This document shows, in pieces, positions 10,525 through 24,432 of a stretch of 64,000 nucleotides of DNA. Source of the stretch: Oceanobacillus manasiensis (GTDB lineage Bacteria > Bacillota > Bacilli > Bacillales > Amphibacillaceae); contig NZ_CCDL010000003.1 of the NCBI RefSeq assembly GCF_000724085.1, positions 124,001 through 188,000 on the forward strand, read 5' to 3'. Position 1 is the stretch's first letter. Each line of letters starts with the position of its first letter. A program made the translations under genes and the position numbers. The notes below the pieces were generated by a model, which searched no databases, had not been told where the DNA came from, and was given only the letters and a program-made list of their open reading frames with translations.

Positions 10525-11244
10525 TTAATTTTGTCTTGATAATGCGTGGCTTACACGGTAGCTGTCTCCTGTAAAGGTAAGTACATGAGCGTGATGTATA
10601 ACGCGATCAACTAAAGCAGCTGTAAGCCTCGAGTCCACGAATATCCGATTCCACTGACTAAATTCCAAATTTGAAGTGATGATGATGCTTTTTTGCTCAT
10701 ACCAATCGGTGATCAGTTGAAATAGAAGCTCCGCTCCTTCTTTGCTGAATGGAATGTACTCCATTTCATCTAAGATGATAAGATCTACTTTTTTAAAACG
10801 ATTCCTAAACTGGTGAAGCTTTCCTTCTCTCCACATTCTTTCTAACGTATCAACTAGATCGGATACCCGATAGAACCGCACCTCATATCCTTTCTTGCAC
10901 GCCTCACGGCCTAACCCTGTCGCTAAATGAGTCTTTCCTGTACCTGGGGAACCGGAAAGAACGACATTCTCTTTCTTAGATATAAAGTGAAGTTCTTTCA
11001 ATTCAGTACGGTCGACCTGAGGGGGAAATCTTATCTGATCTCCCCATTGAAAGTCTGCAAGACTTTTGTGATTGGAGAATTTTGCTTTTTTTATAAGACG
11101 TTCAGCTTTTGCTTCCTCTCTCAATTCAAATTCTCTTTGGAATAATGTTTCCAAGTATTGCGTTTGATTTTCAAACGGGATTTTTTCATAAATATCGGCT
11201 ACATAGGCTAGGCGTAGACTTTTACACATCTCTTTTATATTCAT
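10525..11244 (-). CDS. istB: IS21 helper ATPase IstB
   Basis: A 239-residue AAA+ ATPase, the target-selection helper of IS21 transposition. Walker A is GSPGTGKTHLA (about residues 98-108), Walker B is LIILDEMEYI, and the sensor region TSNLEFSQWNRIF with an arginine-finger segment DRVIHHAHVL follows. The length matches the family. Its ATG overlaps the istA stop codon (ATGA), so the two are translationally coupled. Confidence 0.95.
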   Translation of the reverse strand: MNIKEMCKSLRLAYVADIYEKIPFENQTQYLETLFQREFELREEAKAERLIKKAKFSNHKSLADFQWGDQIRFPPQVDRTELKELHFISKKENVVLSGSPGTGKTHLATGLGREACKKGYEVRFYRVSDLVDTLERMWREGKLHQFRNRFKKVDLIILDEMEYIPFSKEGAELLFQLITDWYEQKSIIITSNLEFSQWNRIFVDSRLTAALVDRVIHHAHVLTFTGDSYRVSHALSRQN

Positions 11245-12686
11245 ACTCGTTGCTCCCCATCCTCTTGCGCAACTGGTTGTAGTAGGTCGTATTTAGACCA
11301 ATCAACGTCATACGGGTGAGAAGTAGAATCAAAGGTTCTTTCTGGTTGTTGTTGTAGAAGATCATAAAACTTGTCATTAACCTCTTCCATATCATACTGA
11401 ATTAATAAGTTGATTAACCAATGTAGACGCTCTTTCCTTAATGTAAGAGGCTCTATGCTTAGATAAGCTGCTATTCGGCCAGGCAAATATGGATTATATC
11501 TTGAGTAAGGAACCGATCTTGGTTTAGAAGCCCAGGCTCTCATAATGGAAAGCCAAGGTATATTTCGGTTTTTGTTCATATATGGCCGATAGTCTGAATG
11601 GAGAATCTCTCCGTAAGGAGATACCACTTTATATCTATCCCAATAGAGTATCAAATGAAGATAACTGAAATTATATCCTTTTGGAATATGTTCTTTCATA
11701 CTGTCTATAGTGATTTCTCCATACTTGTTAGCTGTTACTTTCGTTTCTTTGAAAATCGGATAATCTTCCTCCGGAAGAGCTAAGGCATGATTCAATTCTT
11801 CATCAAGTAGTTCTTGAATACGAACTTCCTTTGCGTAATGAATGCGTTGCCGATCCTGTGCCAGTTTTTCACTTAAAATAGTAGTTAGATCTTCATAGCT
11901 TTCTATGACTGGAGAAGGAGTTACAAAGTTATATCTTACATACCCTACTTTATTTTCAACGTGTCCTTTCTCATTGCCCTTACGTACATTACATGCTTGG
12001 ATTTCAAAACGGTAGAAATTAGCGAATTGAAGAAACTCATCTGTAAAAATGGCTTCGCCATCCTTATTCCTTGCTTTTATTACGGCGGCTTTCAAGTTAT
12101 CAATTCTAAGCTTTCGTGGTACGCCACCCAGTAGTTCAAAGCTTTTCTTTAACCCATATAAAAAGCATTCTTGGTTTTCCCCTGGAAGAGGGATGGTAAA
12201 AGCTGCATTACTATAAGGCAGGCTCATTATTAAACAGTGGACATCGATGAATTTTCCATCTTTCACAGCTTCTGTTATTCCAAAATCCACTTGAGCTTCA
12301 GCCGGAGGGTGATTTAGTCTTTCACTATTCTTATCTTTAACGTCATCTGAATTTCCTTTTCCCTCTTTCCATTCAGCTATGAAGTAGGAAACGGTCCTAT
12401 AGGAACCAGTAAACCCATGCGTTTGAAGTTCTTGAAAAATGGTCTTGTTTCTCCTTCTCAGTTTTGGCTTTAGTTTTTGATCTTCAATAAGCCAGTCCGT
12501 GACAATCTCTCCCCAATGTTCTTCATACATCATTCCTTTTCTCATTACTTGTTTCTCTTGGGGAACCTGGTCTTCGTCCGCATATTTCTTGGCGGTACGC
12601 CAATTCACTTGAGCCCTTTGGGCAATTTTATTTATAGATATGTCTTCATGATTTCTTAAAGTTTTGATATGATTAATCTTAGTCAT
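11241..12686 (-). CDS. istA: IS21 transposase IstA
   Basis: A DDE transposase of about 481 residues that cuts and joins the IS21 ends. It has an N-terminal helix-turn-helix (INKIAQRAQVNWRTAKKYADE), an integrase core beginning AEAQVDFGITEAVKDGKFID (first Asp), RIDNLKAAV (second Asp) and GHVENKVGYVR (catalytic Glu), and a C-terminal basic beta domain. The ATG at 12686 is preferred because AGAGGA lies about 9 bases before it; an upstream extension to 12761 runs into the element end. Confidence 0.93.
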   Translation of the reverse strand: MTKINHIKTLRNHEDISINKIAQRAQVNWRTAKKYADEDQVPQEKQVMRKGMMYEEHWGEIVTDWLIEDQKLKPKLRRRNKTIFQELQTHGFTGSYRTVSYFIAEWKEGKGNSDDVKDKNSERLNHPPAEAQVDFGITEAVKDGKFIDVHCLIMSLPYSNAAFTIPLPGENQECFLYGLKKSFELLGGVPRKLRIDNLKAAVIKARNKDGEAIFTDEFLQFANFYRFEIQACNVRKGNEKGHVENKVGYVRYNFVTPSPVIESYEDLTTILSEKLAQDRQRIHYAKEVRIQELLDEELNHALALPEEDYPIFKETKVTANKYGEITIDSMKEHIPKGYNFSYLHLILYWDRYKVVSPYGEILHSDYRPYMNKNRNIPWLSIMRAWASKPRSVPYSRYNPYLPGRIAAYLSIEPLTLRKERLHWLINLLIQYDMEEVNDKFYDLLQQQPERTFDSTSHPYDVDWSKYDLLQPVAQEDGEQRV

Positions 12687-12836
12687 TGCTAGCAATCCTC
12701 TCGACCTCCACTGTTTTGATTCGACACCAACTACAGTAGAGTTATTTTGGATGGCTGGCAAGGCTTTTTTTTATCTAAAAAAGAAGTGCAGAGTTATGTA
12801 CGTTTTGGTTGCACATCTCTGTACTTCTATTTTGCA

Positions 12837-13268
12837 CTACACAGGTAGCACGTTAGATAGGTTAGTTAACATTATACTACTATCTAAAATATTAATTTCA
12901 TATTTAGCGATTAAGAGAGGAGGGTTATTTTGTACCGCCTCTTTTAATTACTGTATCAAAAAGGGTAACAAATACGTCTAGTATATCGTTAAGCTTATCC
13001 GCTTTAGCTTCTAGAGTGGATTTGTAGATTGTTAAAGTAGCCTATTATAAGAAGTAAGTACTTAATTTGTGTTTCTGCAAATTGAGGGTAATTTGTTCAT
13101 TTATTTTGGGGTAATAATCTAATCCATTAAACCGGTCATTGTTACACGCTTATGTATGACTCCATTAATAAGTAATAAAAAGTTTTAATCATTATACTAT
13201 TCAAACGTAAAATGTTAAGATATGGATATAAAATATTAGGAAAATTCTATTATTTCGAGGTGAAATCT
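12837..13268. other. Intergenic region between IS21 and the Gabija-like pair
   Basis: About 430 bases of AT-rich DNA between the right end of IS21 and the OLD nuclease gene. I see no convincing gene: a 76-codon plus-strand frame starting inside the IS end has no ribosome site. The promoter for the nuclease and helicase genes probably lies in the last 150 bases, where TATACTATT-like boxes occur near 13192, but no clear pair can be fixed. Confidence 0.4.
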
Positions 13269-15413
13269 ATGTATATCTCCAAATTAACCATAAGAAACTT
13301 TCGTAATTTTAAAAACAGTATATTTCATTTTAACAAAGGCGTAAACACGATTATTGGGGAGAATGGAGCTGGTAAAACGAATACTTTTTATGCTATTCGC
13401 TTATTATTGGATAACAACTTGTCCATAAACGCTGCAAAGCTTTTAGAAAGTGATTTTAATAGAGAAGTTGAGCAGTGGAAGGGACAATGGATAATAATTA
13501 AGATTGAATTTGATGAATTGAATTCTAGTGAGGGCGCCAGTATGTTGGCTCATAAGCTAGAGGACATTGACGAATTTAGTAATAGTGGTTCTTACTGCTA
13601 TTACTATCGACCAAAGAAGAGAATAAGAAAGCAATTATACGAGTTATCGGAAAATCCGGGAAAAGATCAAGATATGTTAAACGGGATATTAGAAACAATC
13701 ACGATTGATGATTATGAGGTTGTATATTCTTTTAGAAGTAAAGCGGATTTCTCTAATGATGATATCTACAAAAGTTTTGTAGGTGATTTTGAAAATATAA
13801 TTTTTCCTAATCCAGAGGACGAGACGAATGATCAATTAGGAATTCAAACTTCTCAAATTTTTTTAATTCGAAATGAAATTGCTTGTACTTTTATTAAGGC
13901 ACTTAGAAATGTTTCTGCAGAGATGAAAAAAACAAGGCAGAGTCCTTTGTTAAATCTATTAAGAGGTGCTGCAAATGATATACAAGTTGAAAAATCTAAA
14001 GACCTAACTAGTAAAGTGAGTGATTTAAATGATTATATAAGTGGTCTAGGAGAAATAAAACAACTTGCGAATAGAGTCAGTACTATGTTAAATGACACCG
14101 TAGGTTATACATACGCACCGAAAGTTAGTATAAAATCAGAGCTTCCAGAAGAGATAACAAAACTATTAGGGTCATTGGCTTTATGGGTTGATGATGGAGA
14201 GGAATTACAACATCAAGGGAAATTAGAAGATTTAAGTCTTGGTGGTGCCAACTTAATATATATAACCCTTAAGTTGCTTGAATACGAATACAAGCAACCA
14301 ACTGAAGAAAAGGCTGCACATTTTTTATTAATTGAAGAACCAGAAGCGCATATACATACGCATGTTCAGAAAACAATCTTTGATAAGTATCAGTTTGAAA
14401 ATACACAAGTTATAACATCAACTCATTCAACACATATTTCATCAGCCAGCAAAATTAGTTCTGTTAATGTATTGTCCAAGGAAAGAAACAGTACATATGT
14501 ATGCAATCCGAGTAATGGTTTGACAGTTCAAGAATGTGTCCGTATAGAACGTTATCTTGATGCAATAAGAAGTACACTTTTGTTTGCGAAAGGGATTATA
14601 TTAGTTGAAGGAGATGCGGAAGCCATCTTAATACCAGCAATGTTTAAAGAAGTAACCGGACTATTGCTTGATGAAATTGGTGTTAGTGTTGTTAATGTGA
14701 GTAGCACCGTATTTACTCATGTTGCAAATTTATTCCATGAAGATAGGATAAGAAGAAAGTGTGCAATTATAACAGACCATGATAAATCCATTCTTCCCTT
14801 AGCAGAGGATTCTTCTAAAGATAAGGGAATAAATAAAAAATTCAGGAATTCCCAAACGAAAGGTCAAGAAAGAAAAGAAGCTCTGGATAAATATTGTAAG
14901 GATAATGATTTTATAGAGACTTTTTACGCAGAGCATACATTTGAAATTGACTTTATTTTGGAAGGCAATGAATGGGAAATTACAAATTGTTTAAGTCAGA
15001 TATATAAAAAGGAGGATTCAATTGAAGAATCAAAAAACAAGCTAACCTCAGATGATGATTCTGTTAAAGGTCTAGAAATACTAAGGTTGGCAGATAATGT
15101 TGTTGGAAAAGGATGGTTTGCTTTGTTAGTTGCAGAACATTTATCTATTAAAACTTATATTCCTAATTATATTTTAAATGCAATTTCCTTTGCTTCTAGT
15201 CACATGGGAATAAAACATTTAATTAAAATGGGGACATATCGCGTGAAAAAAGGTACGGAATTAAAGTACTCTGAATTGACTGCTATCCATAATGAGCTAG
15301 TAAAAATACCTGAAAATGAGATTACAGTTTCTTTACTAGTTGAACTGTTTGAAAAACATGCATCTAATGATCAATTTTTATCTTTTTACAAATTATTAAG
15401 TGAGGAGATGTGA
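13269..15413 (+). CDS. OLD-family ATP-dependent endonuclease, GajA-like
   Basis: A 714-residue protein of the overcoming-lysogenization-defect family. The ATPase half begins MYISKLTIRNFRNF and has Walker A IIGENGAGKTN, signature LSLGGANL, Walker B FLLIEEPEAHIH and the H-loop TSTHSTHISSA. The TOPRIM nuclease half has ILVEGDAEAILIPA and IITDHDKSI. Paired with the UvrD-like helicase 3 bases downstream, this is a class 2 OLD arrangement, as in Gabija (GajA/GajB) anti-phage systems; it is longer than the well-known 578-residue GajA. The ATG at 13269 has GAGGTG before it. Confidence 0.88.
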   Translation: MYISKLTIRNFRNFKNSIFHFNKGVNTIIGENGAGKTNTFYAIRLLLDNNLSINAAKLLESDFNREVEQWKGQWIIIKIEFDELNSSEGASMLAHKLEDIDEFSNSGSYCYYYRPKKRIRKQLYELSENPGKDQDMLNGILETITIDDYEVVYSFRSKADFSNDDIYKSFVGDFENIIFPNPEDETNDQLGIQTSQIFLIRNEIACTFIKALRNVSAEMKKTRQSPLLNLLRGAANDIQVEKSKDLTSKVSDLNDYISGLGEIKQLANRVSTMLNDTVGYTYAPKVSIKSELPEEITKLLGSLALWVDDGEELQHQGKLEDLSLGGANLIYITLKLLEYEYKQPTEEKAAHFLLIEEPEAHIHTHVQKTIFDKYQFENTQVITSTHSTHISSASKISSVNVLSKERNSTYVCNPSNGLTVQECVRIERYLDAIRSTLLFAKGIILVEGDAEAILIPAMFKEVTGLLLDEIGVSVVNVSSTVFTHVANLFHEDRIRRKCAIITDHDKSILPLAEDSSKDKGINKKFRNSQTKGQERKEALDKYCKDNDFIETFYAEHTFEIDFILEGNEWEITNCLSQIYKKEDSIEESKNKLTSDDDSVKGLEILRLADNVVGKGWFALLVAEHLSIKTYIPNYILNAISFASSHMGIKHLIKMGTYRVKKGTELKYSELTAIHNELVKIPENEITVSLLVELFEKHASNDQFLSFYKLLSEEM

Positions 15414-15416
15414 GGG

Positions 15417-17222
15417 GTGTTAGAGGGATTAAGTGATCAGCAAAAAAGAGCAGTTAAAGGTCAGGGTAATACTTTAGTAATCGCTTGCCCAGGCAGTGGG
15501 AAAACTAGGGTATTAACAAGAAAAATTGCTTATGAATTAGAAAAAATGAATACAAGGAAAAAATATGTAATTGCATTAACATATACTAATCGAGCTGCAG
15601 AAGAAGTTCAAAAACGAATAGATGAACTTGGTATTTCTACAGAACAATTATGGTCCGGAACTATTCATTCATTTTGTTATCAATGGATTTTGAAACCATA
15701 CGCGGGTTATATAAAGGATTTAAAAGACGGTTTCCAAGTTATTGATGAATTCATGACGATTAATTTGTTAAATCAATTAAAAGCCCAACATTCAATACCA
15801 CGTTATAAAAGTGTTAGAACCAATCTAAATAGGTACGGAAAGTATAGTAATAGCAAAGCTCCTATAAACAATTTGGCAAAAGAATTTCATAGTAAACTAC
15901 TTAAAGAAAAATTTATAGACTTTGATTTGTTATTATACTATTCATATATATTTATAAAAGAGAATTCCAAAGTTAGTAAACAACTATCAAGCTTATTTTC
16001 TTATATTTTTGTGGATGAGTTTCAAGATACGCAAGATTTACAATATGCTATCCTAGGCGAAATTATCAGAGCAAAGAATGGTATGAGCCAGCTGTTTCTT
16101 GTGGGAGATCCTGATCAGGCAATTTACAGTTCATTAGGGGGGATAGCTAAAAATAAGTATGAAATTGAAGAAGAAATAGGGAGTAGAGTTAACGAGCTAG
16201 AATTAAGTGGTAATTATCGGTCTACTCAAAGAATAGTGGATTTTTTTAGTAACTTTCAATCCACAGGGTTATACATTGACTCACTAGCTAGTTATGCGGA
16301 GGATCAAGGGGCAATTGTTTTAAATAAAACTATTAACGAGAATCAATTGTACCAAGAAATTGCTAAAATAGTTGACATGAATTTAAAAGAAGGAGTAAAA
16401 CCAAGTGAAATATGTATCATCGCACCTAGGTGGGTGTTTTTAACGTCCATTTCAAAGAAATTAAAGTCACTATTACCAAATGTTCCGTTTGAAGCTCCTG
16501 GGTTAACCCCATTACCACGTAACGCTGACAATTTCTTTTTTAAGTTATCAAGGCTGTTTTTATCTTCGCCGTCTCCAGATTTGTATATGAGTCGTTTAAG
16601 ATGGAGTAAACAAGTAATTGATAGTCTAAACTTATATACTGGTTCGGCGTTCTCAATTGAAAATGATGATTGTAGGAAGTTTTTAAAATTAGTAAACGGT
16701 ATTTATATAGATGAACAAGATGGTATCCTATATTTAGAAAAAGCATTTTCTTCATTATTTATAAAATTAGAAATTGATATCTATAATCATGAAAAACTAA
16801 TGAAGCAATGGAACTCATTTTTTAGTGGAATTCAGGAGAGATACATGCTTGAAGAGTTTGAGGGTATTCCAAATGATATTCATTATTTTAGAAGTATGAT
16901 GGAACCGTCCAAAGGGGTAGTAATTAATTCATGTCATGGTGTAAAAGGTGAGGAGTTTGAAACAGTAATTGCATTCGGCCTTTTATGGGGCTATGTTCCG
17001 CACTGGAACGAAATTATTGGTAAACCTTCACATGAGCAAATTTCAGCTTCTAACAGATTACTTTACGTAATTGGTTCTAGGGCAAAGAAAAATCTTTATT
17101 TAATTTCTGAACAAGGAAGATCAACCTTTAATAGAAATCCATACTTGATTAATCATCAACTTAATAATGTTGATTTTTGCTACGATAAGAAATCAATTAT
17201 GAGTGGGCACTCATATAACTAA
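15417..17222 (+). CDS. UvrD/Rep-like helicase, GajB-like
   Basis: A 601-residue SF1A DNA helicase. Visible motifs are the Q motif LSDQQKRAV, Walker A ACPGSGKT, motif Ia ALTYTNRAAEE, motif II FVDEFQDT, motif III VGDPDQAIY, motif IV NYRST, motif V HGVKGEEFE and motif VI NRLLYVIGSRAKKNL. The GTG start lies 3 bases after the nuclease stop, with AGGAG inside the end of that gene, so the two are coupled. In Gabija the helicase senses phage DNA intermediates and relieves nuclease inhibition; here that role is inferred from the pairing. Confidence 0.88.
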   Translation: MLEGLSDQQKRAVKGQGNTLVIACPGSGKTRVLTRKIAYELEKMNTRKKYVIALTYTNRAAEEVQKRIDELGISTEQLWSGTIHSFCYQWILKPYAGYIKDLKDGFQVIDEFMTINLLNQLKAQHSIPRYKSVRTNLNRYGKYSNSKAPINNLAKEFHSKLLKEKFIDFDLLLYYSYIFIKENSKVSKQLSSLFSYIFVDEFQDTQDLQYAILGEIIRAKNGMSQLFLVGDPDQAIYSSLGGIAKNKYEIEEEIGSRVNELELSGNYRSTQRIVDFFSNFQSTGLYIDSLASYAEDQGAIVLNKTINENQLYQEIAKIVDMNLKEGVKPSEICIIAPRWVFLTSISKKLKSLLPNVPFEAPGLTPLPRNADNFFFKLSRLFLSSPSPDLYMSRLRWSKQVIDSLNLYTGSAFSIENDDCRKFLKLVNGIYIDEQDGILYLEKAFSSLFIKLEIDIYNHEKLMKQWNSFFSGIQERYMLEEFEGIPNDIHYFRSMMEPSKGVVINSCHGVKGEEFETVIAFGLLWGYVPHWNEIIGKPSHEQISASNRLLYVIGSRAKKNLYLISEQGRSTFNRNPYLINHQLNNVDFCYDKKSIMSGHSYN

Positions 17223-17284: not shown

Positions 17285-18130
17285 TTATAGTGGCTGTTGT
17301 TTGAATACCATCGGTGTTACATAGTCTAACGTTCCGTGAATTCGAATGTTATTAAACCAATGCACATAATCATCCAGTTCAATAGCGAGCTGTTCAAGAG
17401 AATAGAAATGGGCACTGTTAGCGAATTCTGTTTTGAATACCTTAAACATCGCCTCAGCCACGGCATTATCATAAGGGCACCCTTTCATGCTCAGCGATCT
17501 TTGGATGCCAAATGTTTCAAGTGCTTCCGAAATAAGCTTATTATCAAACTCTTTCCCACGATCTGTATGGAACATTTGAACGTCGTTCAAGTTACCTTTG
17601 ATGCTCGATAAAGCTTGATAGACAAGCTCTGCATTTTTATTAGCACCCGCACTACGGCCAATGATTTCACGGTTAAAAAGATCCACAAATAAGCATACGT
17701 AATGCCATCTTGTTCCAACGCGGACATACGTTAAATCACTCACGATGACAGCCAACGGCTTGTCTTGTTCATATTGACGTTGTAATTCGTTTTTTATCAA
17801 CGCTTCATTACTTGATGTTTTATGCGGTTTGTACTGGGCTACGGTATAGTTTGATACAAGCCCAAGTTCATTCATTAGACGGCCAATTCGACGCCGTGAT
17901 ACGTGTTTAGGCTGTGATAATCTACTTAATTCTTTCTTTATTTTGCGCGTGCCATAATTGTTTCGGCTTTCTTTAAAAATTCGGGAGATCTCTTGAGAAA
18001 TCTCTTTATCTTCCATTTTAAGCACACGTCGGCCGTGTGAATTGGCATGATAGTAATACGTACTTTTAGGAATCTGGAGGACGTCACACATTGCTAATAT
18101 CGAATAAATGTGAGCGTTATTTCGAATCAC
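17285..18130 (-). CDS. IS3-family transposase, OrfB (DDE integrase)
   Basis: A 281-residue rve-type integrase. It has the N-terminal IS3 region (STYYYHA, SRIFKESRNNYGTRKIKKEL), then the DDE core: VIVSDLTYVRVGTRWHYVCL (first Asp), MFHTDRGKEFDN (second Asp) and NAVAEAMFKVFKTEF (catalytic Glu), ending with the WFNNIRIHGTLDYVTP tail. All catalytic residues are present. It begins at GTG just after orfA in an overlapping frame, so a fused OrfAB could form by -1 frameshifting at the CGAAAATAG end of orfA. Confidence 0.92.
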   Translation of the reverse strand: MIRNNAHIYSILAMCDVLQIPKSTYYYHANSHGRRVLKMEDKEISQEISRIFKESRNNYGTRKIKKELSRLSQPKHVSRRRIGRLMNELGLVSNYTVAQYKPHKTSSNEALIKNELQRQYEQDKPLAVIVSDLTYVRVGTRWHYVCLFVDLFNREIIGRSAGANKNAELVYQALSSIKGNLNDVQMFHTDRGKEFDNKLISEALETFGIQRSLSMKGCPYDNAVAEAMFKVFKTEFANSAHFYSLEQLAIELDDYVHWFNNIRIHGTLDYVTPMVFKQQPL

Positions 18131-18132
18131 AT

Positions 18133-18423
18133 CTATTTTCGTCCCATGATCAGCGCTGCTTGCTTTAAAATATCATTTTCCATCATGAGACGTTGATTTT
18201 CCTTACGTAACCGAGCTAGTTCATTCTCTTCTTCAGAACGATTATCTTTGGCGGCAAATGAACCTGTTTCTTGATGATTTTTAATCCAGCGATCTAACGC
18301 AGTAGGCGTGATATCATACTCTCTCGCAATATCTGCACGCGGTTTACCATTTTCATAAAGCTTCACTAATTGCAGTTTAAATTCGGGTGTAAAAGTTCGA
18401 CGTTGACGTGTCATCGTAGTCAC
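18133..18423 (-). CDS. IS3-family transposase, OrfA (HTH/leucine zipper)
   Basis: A 96-residue protein with the helix-turn-helix of IS3 OrfA (RRTFTPEFKLQLVKLYENG, IAREYDITPTALDRWIK) and a C-terminal leucine-zipper region (ELARLRKENQRLMMENDILKQA). It binds the element ends and partners OrfB. A short gap separates the two genes on the minus strand. Confidence 0.92.
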   Translation of the reverse strand: MTTMTRQRRTFTPEFKLQLVKLYENGKPRADIAREYDITPTALDRWIKNHQETGSFAAKDNRSEEENELARLRKENQRLMMENDILKQAALIMGRK

Positions 18424-18972: not shown

Positions 18973-19040
18973 TTTTCTGTTCTTATATTATGCCAATGGG
19001 TTCTGAATTATTTATATGGATAAAGAAAGGATTGTTTAAA

Positions 19041-20810
19041 TTGTCCGAAGCTTTCAATGCCAAGAAATATTTTATAAACGGATTTAAATATTACATAAAG
19101 AATGACAATAAGTCATTGTCGAAAATATTTATGCCTAGTATCAGAGAGTTACTCATTGATTATATCGAAATCCATGAGGATATAAATACAAACCTTCAAT
19201 TGGATAAACTAAGTAATGCTAGAAATGAACATCTGGAAGCCATGGTTTATTACATTAAAAGTAATATTTTATATGAGGACAGTCCCTACAGCAAGGAGTT
19301 AGGTTTACTTGTACATCAATTAGAAAATAAAAAAGAAAATTTTTTATTTTATTCTCAAGTATTCACTTTGTGTAATTCACTCATTAAAAAAATAGATAGG
19401 GCTAATATCTATTCTCAAATAGTTGAGCAAGTAAAGAAATATACTAGATTTAGTCAAGTAGAGAAAGCAATTCACTTCATTATAAATGAATTATTATATG
19501 ACGGCTATTCTTTGAAATATTTAAACTCCTGGTATAATAGCAACCTCGGTAGAATGAATATTGACGAGCCTAATATAAATAATGTGTTAAATATGTTTGC
19601 GCAATTAAAGCAAGAGGATAAAAAATTTGTTTACTACATTAATGTGTTAGAGAACAAGTATTTCGTAGAAAATAAGTTGAATATTGATTTCAATCTTACA
19701 TTATCTAAAGTAGATGAGAAAGGTCTAAAATCAGTTGAGAATAAGACCTTTTTACAAAATGCTAAAGGATACAACATTTGTAACATTGAAATTCAGACAA
19801 AGGATTATTATAAAGGACTTGATAACATATTAAATTCAATCAATTCTTATTTTCAAATGATTAATTATGTTTCTTTATCAGATATGAAGTTGTTTATGGA
19901 TAGAATTATTTGTGCCAAACCAGATGGAACATTTGAAAATATCAGGATAAAAGAAGATCAGATATCTCATGACGCAGAGATATTGTTTGATAATACTGAG
20001 AATCGAGAGATACAAGATGTTAAGGATTTTATACGTTACAGAGAGAAGGTATTCACTGAGAATATAAATTCGCAAGAAGTTTTCAATATTCAAAGGGCAT
20101 TAAACATAATTAAAAGCCAAATAACTCAATCACAAGAAAATAAAATAATCAATTTATGGGCGGTACTAGAATACATGCTTACATTTAAAGAATCTGGGGG
20201 AAGTATAATTTCCAAAGTAAAAGATATAGTTCCTAAAGTGGTAAGTTTATATTTCCTTAAAGACAAAATAAATGTATTTTGGAGTCACATTTACGATCAA
20301 AGAAATAGAGATATCCCTATCGTTAACGAATTTCTTCAATGCAAAAAAAAGGATGATAATTATCAATACGATTTAAATAAGCTAATACAGTTCATCTCAC
20401 AAAAAGGTAAATCACTCATTTCAGAATTAGAATTCAGTGCAATACTCTCGAAAGAGATTGCTGAGATAGGTTTATATCTTGAGAAACCTAAAGAGTTAGC
20501 AAAACAAATAGAACTTAGGAATAAAGAAATCAATTATGATTTAGTTCGGATATATAGAGCGAGAAATATGTTAATTCACTCAGGACGAGAAACCAAGACA
20601 GATTTAAATTGCAAGGCATTAAGATTATATAAATACAACAACAATTTAATAGGTTTAGTTATTTATTATATGTGTGAGAATCCACACTATAGAATAACAG
20701 AAATCTTAAATTCTATTGACTATACATATGATAATTATCTGGACGAATTAAAAAAAAGTTCAATCAGTAAAAATGAGATTGTAAAGCCCAAATATCTCTT
20801 TATTAGTTAA
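19041..20810 (+). CDS. HEPN-domain (ApeA-like) protein, putative RNase toxin/effector
   Basis: A protein of about 589 residues from a TTG at 19041 that has AGAAAGG ten bases upstream; an in-frame ATG at 18990 lacks a ribosome site but is possible. The C-terminal third looks like an ApeA-type HEPN domain: helix KIINLWAVLEYMLTF near residues 368-382 and the RNase motif R-N-M-L-I-H (Arg 508, His 513) in YRARNMLIHSG. The N-terminal 350 residues are helical, Lys/Asn rich and unrecognised. HEPN RNases cleave RNA in toxin-antitoxin and abortive-infection systems. The two RNA units just upstream make RNA-controlled activity the leading idea. Confidence 0.65.
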   Translation: MSEAFNAKKYFINGFKYYIKNDNKSLSKIFMPSIRELLIDYIEIHEDINTNLQLDKLSNARNEHLEAMVYYIKSNILYEDSPYSKELGLLVHQLENKKENFLFYSQVFTLCNSLIKKIDRANIYSQIVEQVKKYTRFSQVEKAIHFIINELLYDGYSLKYLNSWYNSNLGRMNIDEPNINNVLNMFAQLKQEDKKFVYYINVLENKYFVENKLNIDFNLTLSKVDEKGLKSVENKTFLQNAKGYNICNIEIQTKDYYKGLDNILNSINSYFQMINYVSLSDMKLFMDRIICAKPDGTFENIRIKEDQISHDAEILFDNTENREIQDVKDFIRYREKVFTENINSQEVFNIQRALNIIKSQITQSQENKIINLWAVLEYMLTFKESGGSIISKVKDIVPKVVSLYFLKDKINVFWSHIYDQRNRDIPIVNEFLQCKKKDDNYQYDLNKLIQFISQKGKSLISELEFSAILSKEIAEIGLYLEKPKELAKQIELRNKEINYDLVRIYRARNMLIHSGRETKTDLNCKALRLYKYNNNLIGLVIYYMCENPHYRITEILNSIDYTYDNYLDELKKSSISKNEIVKPKYLFIS

Positions 20811-21181
20811 ATTTAATGAATCTGTTTGCAGCTAAAGCTACAATTATTGCTGTGTTCCCTTTTGAACGAGAACAGTAGGGCCCTACGTTAGATGATTGAG
20901 GGTGAAATGTATTTTATTAAAGAACAATATTCACAATAAAAGTTAGTTAGGTGAATTCCAATACTCTTATTTATTGTCTACTAACAGTACTCAACACACG
21001 TCGAGTGCGTGGCGTTGATAGAGTTAAAATAGCTTGGTATCAATAGGTTTAGCAGACTTTAGGTGAAAATTGAAGTGTGTTTTATGTTCCCTCGGACTTA
21101 TGTTCGGGGGATTTTTTGACCCCCGGGGGCCTACTTTTACGCAGAAAGAGTGGTGGAATTTTACAGAGAGGGTTAAGCAAT
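20811..21181. other. Intergenic region with no assignable gene
   Basis: About 370 bases between the HEPN gene and a restriction-subunit fragment. It contains CCCCCGGGGGCC and other GC-rich stretches at 21120-21130 unlike its AT-rich surroundings, and frames broken by stops. I see no intact gene; it is probably debris from lost defence genes. Confidence 0.4.
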
Positions 21182-21493
21182 ATGACGGAAGGTATGCTCG
21201 AAACAATCCGAAAAGCTATTCCTAATTCTGCTTGGGTTGGTTATACCGGTACACCAAAATTCCCTGAAACACGAGAAATCTTTGGTGAACATCTACATGC
21301 ATATACCATTAAAGAAGCTATTGCGGATAAAAACGTCTTAGGGTTTAACGTTGAATTCAAGGAAACGATCGAACCTCCCGTAGATCCTACTGAAGATGAT
21401 ATCGATGATAATGTTCGTGGTAGTGTTTATGACTATAGTCCAGATCAGGATGTTCCTTTAATCAACTTAGAATCTGGTCCTGATGAAGGTTAA
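21182..21493 (+). pseudogene. Fragment of type I restriction enzyme R subunit (HsdR)
   Basis: About 100 codons match the helicase part of HsdR: MLETIRKAIPNSAWVGYTGTP (motif III region of the SF2 motor) followed by REIFGEHLHAYTIKEAIADK and VLGFNVEFKETIEPP. The N-terminal nuclease, the DEAH motif and everything after are missing, and no HsdM or HsdS genes are nearby. It is the relic of a type I restriction-modification system. Confidence 0.8.
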
Positions 21494-21640: not shown

Positions 21641-21816
21641 TTATACAATCACTTCTAATTAAGACACCTTCCCAGCCCTCCAACATGTAGTTTACTAATT
21701 AAGTCTAACTGATGGGCGTTGATTTGAGTAGAAAGTGTTCAGTTCTAACGAGCAAAAACAGTTCAATTTAGTTTAGCAGTTACAAATTTTTATAAAGGTA
21801 TGAGTAATATTTAAAA

Positions 21817-21850
21817 ACGTTTATAAACTATTATATACATTTACAAACTA
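21817..21850. promoter_or_regulatory. Two direct 14-bp repeats, each partly palindromic
   Basis: ACGTTTATAAACTA at 21817 and ACATTTACAAACTA at 21837 are spaced exactly 20 bases apart, two helical turns. The first contains the perfect palindrome GTTTATAAAC. They lie about 50 bases before the recombinase-like gene, so they could be binding sites for that protein or for a regulator. Confidence 0.5.
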
Positions 21851-21896
21851 AATGGATATGATTAACATACAACATGCCTAATGGAGCGGATTAATT

Positions 21897-22529
21897 ATGA
21901 GTAATAAGACTTTTGCATATCTAAGTGTATCTAGCAGTGATCAAAATGAAGCTAGACAGCTGAAAGAAATTCAGAAATTGGGAATAAATGAATGTGACAT
22001 TTTCATGGATAAACAAAGCGGTAAGGATTTTAACAGACCGCAATATCAAGCTCTAAAACAATGCTTGCGAGAAGGTGATTTACTATATATAAAATCTATA
22101 GACAGATTTGGTAGTAGCTCTAAGGAAATTAAGAAAGAATGGGAAGAAATTACTCAAGATATTAAGGCAGAAATAAAAGTCTTAGATATGCCATTGCTAG
22201 ATACTACAAAATATAAAGACCAATTAGGTACGTTTGTTAGTGAGTTGGTACTGCAAGTATTGTCATTTGTTGCTGAGCGGGAGCGAGAAAATATTAGAAA
22301 ACGACAAGCAGAAGGTATAGCAGATGCAAAAGCAAGTGGAAGGCATTTAGGAAGACCCAAACTAGAGTTAGATACACTGAGCAAGAAACAAAGAATGGAC
22401 TTGGAAAAAAACTATCAAGCGTGGAGGGACAAAATAATTACAGGAGTTCAATTTGCTACTATATTACAATTAAAAAAGAACTCTTTTTATAAAATAATTA
22501 AAAAATATGAAAAAAGTAAACATGAATAA
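21897..22529 (+). CDS. Serine recombinase/resolvase family protein, catalytically altered
   Basis: A 210-residue resolvase/invertase-family protein. It keeps the nucleophile region YLSVSSSDQN (Ser 12), SIDRFG (Arg 70) and the long E-helix region ELVLQVLSFVAERERENIRKRQAEG followed by GRPKLELD and a helix-turn-helix tail. Two arginines that activate the nucleophile are replaced: YxRVS is YLSVS (Ser 10) and DRxGR is DRFGS (Ser 73). It may therefore bind DNA without efficient strand exchange. Its stop lies 22 bases before the sce7726-like gene, suggesting one transcript. Confidence 0.85.
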   Translation: MSNKTFAYLSVSSSDQNEARQLKEIQKLGINECDIFMDKQSGKDFNRPQYQALKQCLREGDLLYIKSIDRFGSSSKEIKKEWEEITQDIKAEIKVLDMPLLDTTKYKDQLGTFVSELVLQVLSFVAERERENIRKRQAEGIADAKASGRHLGRPKLELDTLSKKQRMDLEKNYQAWRDKIITGVQFATILQLKKNSFYKIIKKYEKSKHE

Positions 22530-22551
22530 CATAAAAGAAAAGAGTGGTTAG

Positions 22552-23355
22552 ATGGAAAATGCAAAATTTAATGATTGGTTTAATAAAAAAACAATTACAA
22601 AGCTAATTGAAAAAGATATCGATGAGAAAGTATCGAAACAATTAGTTAATTCCAAAAGCTTATATAAAGAAATGGCATTTTCTTATAGGAATGAGTTCTT
22701 CTATAAAAATACTCTTTTCAACAAGTGTGTTTTAGGGAGGTATAGTTTAAATACAACAGTTGCATTAAGTGAATTTGAGATCGACAATTCAAAGGCAGAT
22801 TTTGCAATAATTAATAAGAAAAAGTCTTTTGTTGTAGAGATTAAAACCGACTTAGACACATTAGACAAATTGATATATCAAATTGAAGATTATTATAAAG
22901 TCTTTTCTTTAGTGTATGTACTAACTTCGGAGAACTACTATTATCAAGTGTACCGCTTAGTTAAAAATACAAGTGTAGGAATTATGGTATTAACCAAGAG
23001 GAACACTATTAGTATTAGAAAGTTTGCAAAAGATGACGTCAGCAAATTGAAACATGAAAATCTTTTCAGGCTTTTAAGGAAGGAAGAGTATGAGGACTTA
23101 ATTGAAAATCAATTCAAAGAAGTTCCAGAGGTAAAACCTATCTTCAGATATTCGGCATACTTAGACGTGTATAAACAATTAGAATTAGAAAAATCCCAAA
23201 AACTAGTATTTAAGGAGATTTTAAGAAGGATAAACAGATTTGATGTAGAATATTTAAAGAGAGTGCCTTTGGAATTAAGATGGCTAGTTTACCAATCACA
23301 TTTAAATCGTGAAAAATTTGAAAGGCTCTTAAATAATTTACAAGGGGGCATTTAA
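22552..23355 (+). CDS. sce7726 family protein (PD-(D/E)xK nuclease-like)
   Basis: A 267-residue protein of the family annotated as sce7726. The middle carries a nuclease-like core: KADFAIINKKKSFVVEIKTDLDTLDKLIYQIEDYYKVF, whose Asp, Glu-x-Lys and following Gln helix fit a PD-(D/E)xK active site. The N-terminus is a helical head and the C-terminus a Lys/Arg-rich helical tail. Its gene ends exactly at the base before the ATG of the sce7725-like gene, as is usual for this pair. Function is unproved; the location in a defence island supports a defence role. Confidence 0.78.
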   Translation: MENAKFNDWFNKKTITKLIEKDIDEKVSKQLVNSKSLYKEMAFSYRNEFFYKNTLFNKCVLGRYSLNTTVALSEFEIDNSKADFAIINKKKSFVVEIKTDLDTLDKLIYQIEDYYKVFSLVYVLTSENYYYQVYRLVKNTSVGIMVLTKRNTISIRKFAKDDVSKLKHENLFRLLRKEEYEDLIENQFKEVPEVKPIFRYSAYLDVYKQLELEKSQKLVFKEILRRINRFDVEYLKRVPLELRWLVYQSHLNREKFERLLNNLQGGI

Positions 23356-24300
23356 ATGTATTTTCCGTTTTTACGAGGTAAACAGCACGAGTTATTTGCA
23401 CTAAGAGATTTGAAAGATTCTAATGTTTTGTCAGGAGAAGTATTACCAGTTATCGAGCCAGTTAAATATTCTACACAGTTGGTGAGTACAGTAAGGGGAT
23501 TACTTGATGATAACCGAAAATTGATTATGATAATGAATCCCAGTGTAGGAACATTTGTGGACGATTTAAATGACAATGAAGAACTAATGGAAGAAATTTT
23601 AGAACTTATGGGAGAACAGAATGCGACTATTGGTTATTACTTGAACTCGAATGCAGCTATAGAAGAATTGCCCCAACTTGTTAACAGATGTGAAAGAACT
23701 CTGCGGGAAACAGCGGTTTTTCACAGTGATTTAAGACATTTAGATACTTATGATGTAATGTTTGCTGAAAATGAAGCAAGGTATAATTTTGTTGCTGACA
23801 TAAAGCCCCTCAAGAGAAGATTTGCAAATAATAATGGAGTCATCTTAAGAGATTCTTTTATAAAACGTACACCTAACGCTGAATATCTGAATCATCAAGT
23901 TGAGTGGTTTTCTTCAGACCATTTAGATTTTGAACAAGAAGGATTCTTAGGTTTTTCTGATTATTCTATTGTAGGTGAAGAATATACTGAAAGCGGATTC
24001 GGTGCTAAAGCTGTTGCTTTTCATATTCTTTATCCCGATGAAGCGAAGAATTTATGGGTGAGGCATTTTGTATCGGATTCAAATGAAAATCGGGCTGACC
24101 AAGCGGGTAAATTCGGTGAAGCTCTTTATAAATTCATAGATTGGTATAACCAAAATGAAACAGCATTAATTGATACAGAAGGAATAAATGAATTATTAGA
24201 GTGTTATAAAAATGGTAACTATCCTGGTCTAGGAATGCTAAAGCGTTATTCAATTAAACACCATTTAGAACTTGTTGGTAATATGTTGGTGAAGGTTTAA
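23356..24300 (+). CDS. sce7725 family / beta-family protein
   Basis: A 314-residue protein that starts MYFPFLRGKQHELFALRDL, the signature opening of sce7725/beta-family proteins, with VLPVIEPV soon after. The alternation of strands and helices fits a TIM-barrel-like fold. A ribosome site AAGGGGG lies inside the end of the preceding gene, so translation is coupled. The pair with the sce7726-like nuclease is a conserved two-gene unit without known function. A terminator follows directly. Confidence 0.78.
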   Translation: MYFPFLRGKQHELFALRDLKDSNVLSGEVLPVIEPVKYSTQLVSTVRGLLDDNRKLIMIMNPSVGTFVDDLNDNEELMEEILELMGEQNATIGYYLNSNAAIEELPQLVNRCERTLRETAVFHSDLRHLDTYDVMFAENEARYNFVADIKPLKRRFANNNGVILRDSFIKRTPNAEYLNHQVEWFSSDHLDFEQEGFLGFSDYSIVGEEYTESGFGAKAVAFHILYPDEAKNLWVRHFVSDSNENRADQAGKFGEALYKFIDWYNQNETALIDTEGINELLECYKNGNYPGLGMLKRYSIKHHLELVGNMLVKV

Positions 24301-24309
24301 AATGTATAA

Positions 24310-24347
24310 AATGAGACCTATCTCTTAATGAGTTAGGTCTTATTTTG
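24310..24347 (+). terminator. Rho-independent terminator after the sce7725-like gene
   Basis: AATGAGACCTA pairs with TAGGTCTTATT (one G-T pair) around a 13-base loop, and TTTTGTT continues the tail. It ends the recombinase/sce7726/sce7725 unit. Confidence 0.8.
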
Positions 24348-24432
24348 TTATTCCTTTACGTCAATTTTAGAGGTGTGGAATTGTGCTTCTTATTAGTTTA
24401 CTGATTTCATCCGAACCACTCGCCACGCTGGA

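Follow-up and report, generated by a model that had tools for sequence, protein, structure and literature searches.

A sce7726-sce7725 gene pair of Oceanobacillus manasiensis: a probable branch of the cII-beta module without its RES gene, behind an unrelated serine recombinase

Introduction

When a small serine recombinase is followed almost without a gap by two genes from families that have names and no assigned function, do the three genes form one unit, or has the recombinase simply come to lie there? The two families are sce7726 and sce7725, and the locus lies in a 64,000-nucleotide stretch of the genome of Oceanobacillus manasiensis (contig NZ_CCDL010000003.1, positions 124,001 to 188,000), which we call the window. 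The original prediction, made from the letters of this DNA, saw a defence or DNA-processing cassette of three genes, with the resolvase-like protein as its DNA-binding regulator or partner. As far as the sce pair is concerned, a defence-type reading has held up; the three-gene unit has not. The explanation that we favour, and that we hold to be moderately probable, is that sce7726 and sce7725 are a branch of the cII-beta module and usually stand in an operon with a RES gene, and that the window copy is an effector-less one behind an unrelated recombinase.

The three genes and their upstream region

The features of the locus are collected in Table 1. The coordinates confirm that the three genes are consecutive, with 22 bp between the recombinase and sce7726 and 0 bp between sce7726 and sce7725, and that one terminator closes the row, a hairpin that a simple terminator scan does not pick up. 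All three products belong clearly to their families: the recombinase scores 79.4 bits with PF00239 (cut-off 23), sce7726 150.6 bits with NF033832 (curated cut-off 70), and sce7725 330.9 bits with NF033831 (curated cut-off 60).

Table 1. Features of the locus and its neighbours, in window coordinates
Feature	Position	Strand	Remarks
Gabija gajA (13212-15413) and gajB (15417-17222)	13212-17222	+	GajA 2.5e-282, GajB 2.7e-231; neighbour only
HsdR fragment (type I restriction, SWI2/SNF2 part)	21180-21493	+	degraded restriction system; neighbour only
Two 20-bp direct repeats, TTAAAAACGTTTATAAACTA / TTATATACATTTACAAACTA	21811-21850	+	probable resolvase operator or res-subsite remnant
Promoter-like TATACA-17-TATGAT	21834-21862	+	consensus match only; overlaps second repeat
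Serine recombinase gene	21897-22529	+	210 aa; small, resolvase/invertase family, PF00239
sce7726 gene	22552-23355	+	267 aa; NF033832
sce7725 gene	23356-24300	+	314 aa; NF033831
Intrinsic terminator hairpin with T-rich tail	about 24306-24352	+	-22.7 kcal/mol, z -7.7

The direct repeats at 20-bp spacing that had been noticed before the genes are also real. The two units (21811-21830 and 21831-21850) are 80% identical, and they exceed what is expected by chance, since dinucleotide shuffles of the 200 bp before the genes rarely reach such matches: a 12/14 match at spacing 20 occurs in 2 of 1000 shuffles and, with any spacing from 12 to 40 allowed, a 16/20 self-match in 2 of 300. To which gene do the repeats belong? 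The closest recombinase found (locus L124, 71% identical to the window protein) is a free-standing one: the 19 kb around it contain no sce genes. Its upstream region aligns to that of the window without gaps across both repeats, with the 20-bp spacing kept, and the counterpart of the promoter-like site reads TTGACC-17-TATAAT. Judging by this alignment, the repeats are the recombinase's own, and not operators of a three-gene unit as had been proposed. As just 22 bp separate the recombinase from sce7726, the sce pair is probably transcribed from the recombinase's promoter.

A recombinase that is probably no longer active

The window protein resembles other small serine recombinases (PF00239) in having a full-length catalytic domain with the nucleophile S10 (Ser at residue 12), R45, D67, and R68, and also in its upstream repeats overlapping a promoter-like site. 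It differs from the active ones in having a serine in place of both R8 (residue 10) and R71 (residue 73), two arginines present in every relative that covers both sites. In resolvase-DNA structures, the scissile phosphate is contacted by R8 and R68, and a contact by R71 has been proposed (PMC4499144). Because two of these three arginines are lost and only R68 is kept, catalysis is very unlikely and we predict a catalytically dead protein; the earlier suggestion that it does not act as a recombinase is probably right.

The protein may still bind DNA. The catalytic domain is identical to that of the L124 protein at 80/110 positions and the C-terminal region at 32/59, so that the DNA-binding part is the less conserved one, and this comparison by domain does not speak for selection acting on DNA binding alone. 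The same genome has a paralogue of the resolvase (45% identical), and no transposon is seen around the window recombinase.

The recombinase and the sce pair in other genomes

We scanned named genomes for sce loci and analyzed 80 of them, the best 80 of 313, in which two or three genomes repeat those from other searches; the sequence upstream of the pair exceeds 500 bp in 76 of the 80. In none of these best 80 of 313 does a co-directional serine recombinase lie directly upstream of the pair. In one locus a divergent recombinase lies 281 bp upstream, and in three the distance is about 1.6-2 kb, again with divergent orientation. Outside the 80, only two related genomes of one genus (L028 and L029) have a co-directional upstream resolvase, across a 330-bp gap; that resolvase is of a different subtype with its catalytic arginines intact, and both retain RES. 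Partnership between the recombinase and the sce pair is therefore not conserved, and its position before the window pair is most likely that of a chance neighbour.

The sce pair as remote homologues of P4 cII and beta

In sce7726, the residues D83, E96, and K98 of the D..ExK motif are invariant in 30 homologues, which bears out the nuclease-like core of the original prediction. The predicted model (pLDDT 91.6) agrees, with PD-(D/E)XK enzymes as its best matches (3dnx Z 9.8, PaqCI 8.4, XisH 7.5), and from model and conservation together we assign sce7726 a predicted PD-(D/E)XK nuclease fold. The fold and the motif are common to restriction-type nucleases such as PaqCI, the XisH family, and EcoT38I, but the structural similarity is middling (Z 6.4-9.8) and sce7726 has no methyltransferase partner. 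The PADLOC model 'cll' matches the window protein at 4.5e-12. We take 'cll' to be the cII of P4 gop-beta-cII, and comparing the sce7726 profile directly with P4 cII gives an hhalign probability of 94.8 (E 5.5e-8), which makes sce7726 a remote homologue of cII.

The predicted model of sce7725 (pLDDT 89.9) resembles a TIM barrel and has many structural matches near Z 10; a shared TIM barrel is uninformative on function. The relationship to beta is a remote one, seen from profile to profile: against a profile of seven beta proteins, sce7725 aligns over its full length with probability 94.7 and E 6e-8 over 307 columns. The comparison of single sequences is weak, the Pfam Beta_protein model gives 24.7 bits (below its cut-off of 27), and a Foldseek comparison of the model with viral models has no named P4 beta among the matches listed. 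PDB sequence searches with the sce7726 profile and with the sce7725 profile gave no match. In Bacilli, genes of the Beta_protein family have as neighbour a gene with matches to P4 cII as well as to sce7726. Given this arrangement and the profile matches to cII and to beta, we read sce7726/sce7725 and cII/beta as remote homologues, two branches of one pair. The link between the two pairs is new here.

The gop-beta-cII locus of satellite P4 is a validated anti-phage toxin-antitoxin-like locus, which protects E. coli against lambda and P1, and in which gop acts as a toxin when beta is absent (Rousset et al. 2022, PMC9122126). The sce loci are like it in the side-by-side homologous pair and in their accessory distribution. 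The third gene is the toxin in P4 and may be one in the sce loci. They differ in that P4 cII is convergent to beta and the toxin is gop, whereas all genes of the sce loci are co-directional and RES takes the place of gop. The gop protein has 133 aa and no Pfam match, and neither the window nor the related loci have a gop-like ORF; unlike the P4 locus, the window locus has no effector at all.

The RES gene of the usual operon

In all of the best 80 of 313 named loci, sce7726 precedes and adjoins sce7725 (median gap 2 bp), and in 76 of these 80 a RES-domain gene follows directly downstream of sce7725 (median gap -1 bp). A C-terminal RES domain was confirmed by Pfam in 5/5 of the third-gene products tested, their N-terminus is cysteine-rich, and plasmid copies are annotated as RES family NAD+ phosphorylase. 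RES enzymes phosphorolyse NAD+ with a toxic product (PMC9503650), and architectures combining a Zn-ribbon, HEPN/RES-NTD1, and RES have been described (PMC3710099). The typical sce operon thus has its RES NAD+ phosphorylase effector in common with the NAD+-degrading toxin-antitoxin modules of the RES-Xre type. Unlike them, it has no Xre antitoxin, its RES protein follows sce7726-sce7725, and that protein has an N-terminal Cys-rich (Zn-ribbon-like) and HEPN/RES-NTD-type part; the window lacks RES.

The distribution is patchy, with sce7725 in 4 of 159 genomes at the level of the family, 10 of 399 at that of the class, and 9 of 398 at that of the phylum (about 2-3%). Plasmids and a Salmonella region with an integrative element also have the order sce7726-sce7725-RES, as do 12 of 13 IMG/VR loci; ten of these loci are near-identical copies of a single virus. 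Because of the P4 beta/cII homology, the RES linkage, this patchy distribution, and the location behind Gabija, the sce pair very likely forms a cassette of the defence or toxin-antitoxin type. From the homology and the RES linkage, the usual operon would probably be an abortive-infection system with RES as its effector. A name search of the literature leads to papers in which sce7725 and sce7726 are listed as families, and to no experiment linking sce7725, sce7726, or RES to phage defence; a literature search on RES and anti-phage activity has no title or abstract linking these genes.

It was also of interest whether sce loci neighbour known defence systems. A PADLOC tally (E<=1e-10) is not above its controls, with 23 families among 150 sce neighbours and 39 among 145 control genes, which come from random stretches of genomes with sce loci and of related genomes. 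The tally does not discriminate, because the models match ordinary helicases, methyltransferases, and ATPases, and we dropped it as evidence for defence islands.

Some loci depart from the usual order. In a Lachnospiraceae MAG (L078, 8941-10909), a macro-domain (ADP-ribose) gene overlapping sce7725 replaces RES and is followed by an ADP-ribosylglycohydrolase-like gene, which gives another ADP-ribose-linked third gene. Three genomes from one family of the class (L031, L032, L033) and an E. faecium plasmid (L176) have a divergent pair and no RES gene, with a protein of about 223 aa, missed by the sce7726 profile, preceding sce7725.

A branch without RES

The window has neither a RES gene nor a remnant of one, directly downstream of sce7725 or anywhere else, and none is found in the whole genome. 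The nearest relative of the pair, 48% identical, comes from another family, in Jeotgalibacillus (L044), where the pair has a type I restriction system on one side and a tyrosine integrase on the other. That locus lacks RES and the upstream recombinase too, and its genome has one RES gene elsewhere. The two group together without RES in a clade of their own (support 1.0), which lies within RES-bearing loci (0.993), and because of this nesting the simplest reading of the tree is that RES was lost before they split. In each of the two sce7725 proteins, 8 near-invariant positions are changed, the most of any clade, four of them in common (E18D, A216G, P217A, K297R); the RES-bearing L113 and L114 have 6 and 5 such changes. 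That the changed positions reflect a lost contact with RES is suggestive, and not proof.

Two other loci can be noted. An IMG/VR contig with terminase-like genes (L159, 7146-8939) has sce7726-sce7725 without RES, a further effector-less case, and in a genome of the window's family (G031, locus L026) the pair has decayed to a fragment of sce7725 that is interrupted by a stop.

Weighing the explanations

How would such a module work? The RES protein (Zn-ribbon/RES NAD+-phosphorylase) would be, in most genomes, a toxin that stops the cell; sce7725, as the beta-like TIM barrel, would most likely hold it off, and sce7726 would most likely sense or cut invading DNA and so trigger its release. In the window, an unrelated small serine recombinase would have brought its own promoter and 20-bp-spaced binding repeats and, being non-catalytic, would at most autorepress the shared transcript. 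The toxin and antitoxin roles, the triggering, the repression, and any defence that the pair may still provide without RES are what we infer. The window copy is most likely a branch without an effector, transcribed from a resolvase promoter that it inherited.

The single three-gene cassette, with the recombinase as its dedicated DNA-binding regulator or partner, now appears improbable. The short gaps and the one terminator do imply co-transcription of the three genes, there is no room for a separate sce7726 promoter, the repeats overlap the promoter-like site, and a catalytic domain so well kept in spite of the loss of R8 and R71 is what one expects of a pseudo-enzyme kept for binding. But a co-directional upstream recombinase is absent from all of the best 80 of 313 named loci, the closest relative of the pair does without one, and the repeats also stand before a free-standing recombinase in another genome, so that the recombinase looks like an unrelated neighbour nearly everywhere. 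A related proposal, in which the branch is self-sufficient, sce7726 is itself the effector, and the dead recombinase has been co-opted as a repressor that is released when its sites are disturbed, for instance by phage DNA, strikes us as a long shot.

One point against our preferred explanation is that the RES-less state could be plain decay. A decaying remnant, with RES lost, the resolvase dead, and the pair functionless, we regard as possible if somewhat unlikely, and it is compatible with the family-level part of that explanation. The missing RES gene, the HsdR fragment and insertion sequences nearby, and the many changed sce7725 positions in the window and L044 all fit it. Yet both sce genes are full-length and the nuclease triad is intact, the RES-less state is common to a relative only 48% identical, so that the pair has probably been maintained with no RES gene linked to it, and the RES-bearing L113/L114 clade also has up to 6 such changes. 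Could the pair instead be an orphan antitoxin, which protects the cell against the RES toxins of incoming plasmids and phages? RES-linked loci are indeed found on plasmids and in viral contigs, but sce7725 is changed where RES-bearing loci are conserved, which rather suggests that RES binding is lost, and we hold this idea to be quite doubtful. For the family as a whole, the link between cII/beta and RES gives a testable hypothesis, that of a widespread abortive-infection system with an NAD+-destroying effector. As a branch that has lost this effector, the window copy provides a natural experiment.

Genomic neighbourhood

The Gabija system upstream of the sce row is complete, and directly behind it lies an IS3-type transposase pair (17285-18423). 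In the same defence-rich stretch, a 606-aa protein (18990-20810) has no match in Pfam, NCBIfam, PHROGs, or PADLOC, and near its C-terminus an RxxxxH motif (RNMLIH) as in HEPN RNases. The HsdR fragment was considered as a relic of the type I system of L044, and no similarity between them was found. Further upstream, at 10525-12761, lies an IS21-type element with istA/istB-like genes. It occurs a second time in this genome, 99.9% identical (L025, 9912-12305), within a few kb of the paralogue of the window resolvase.
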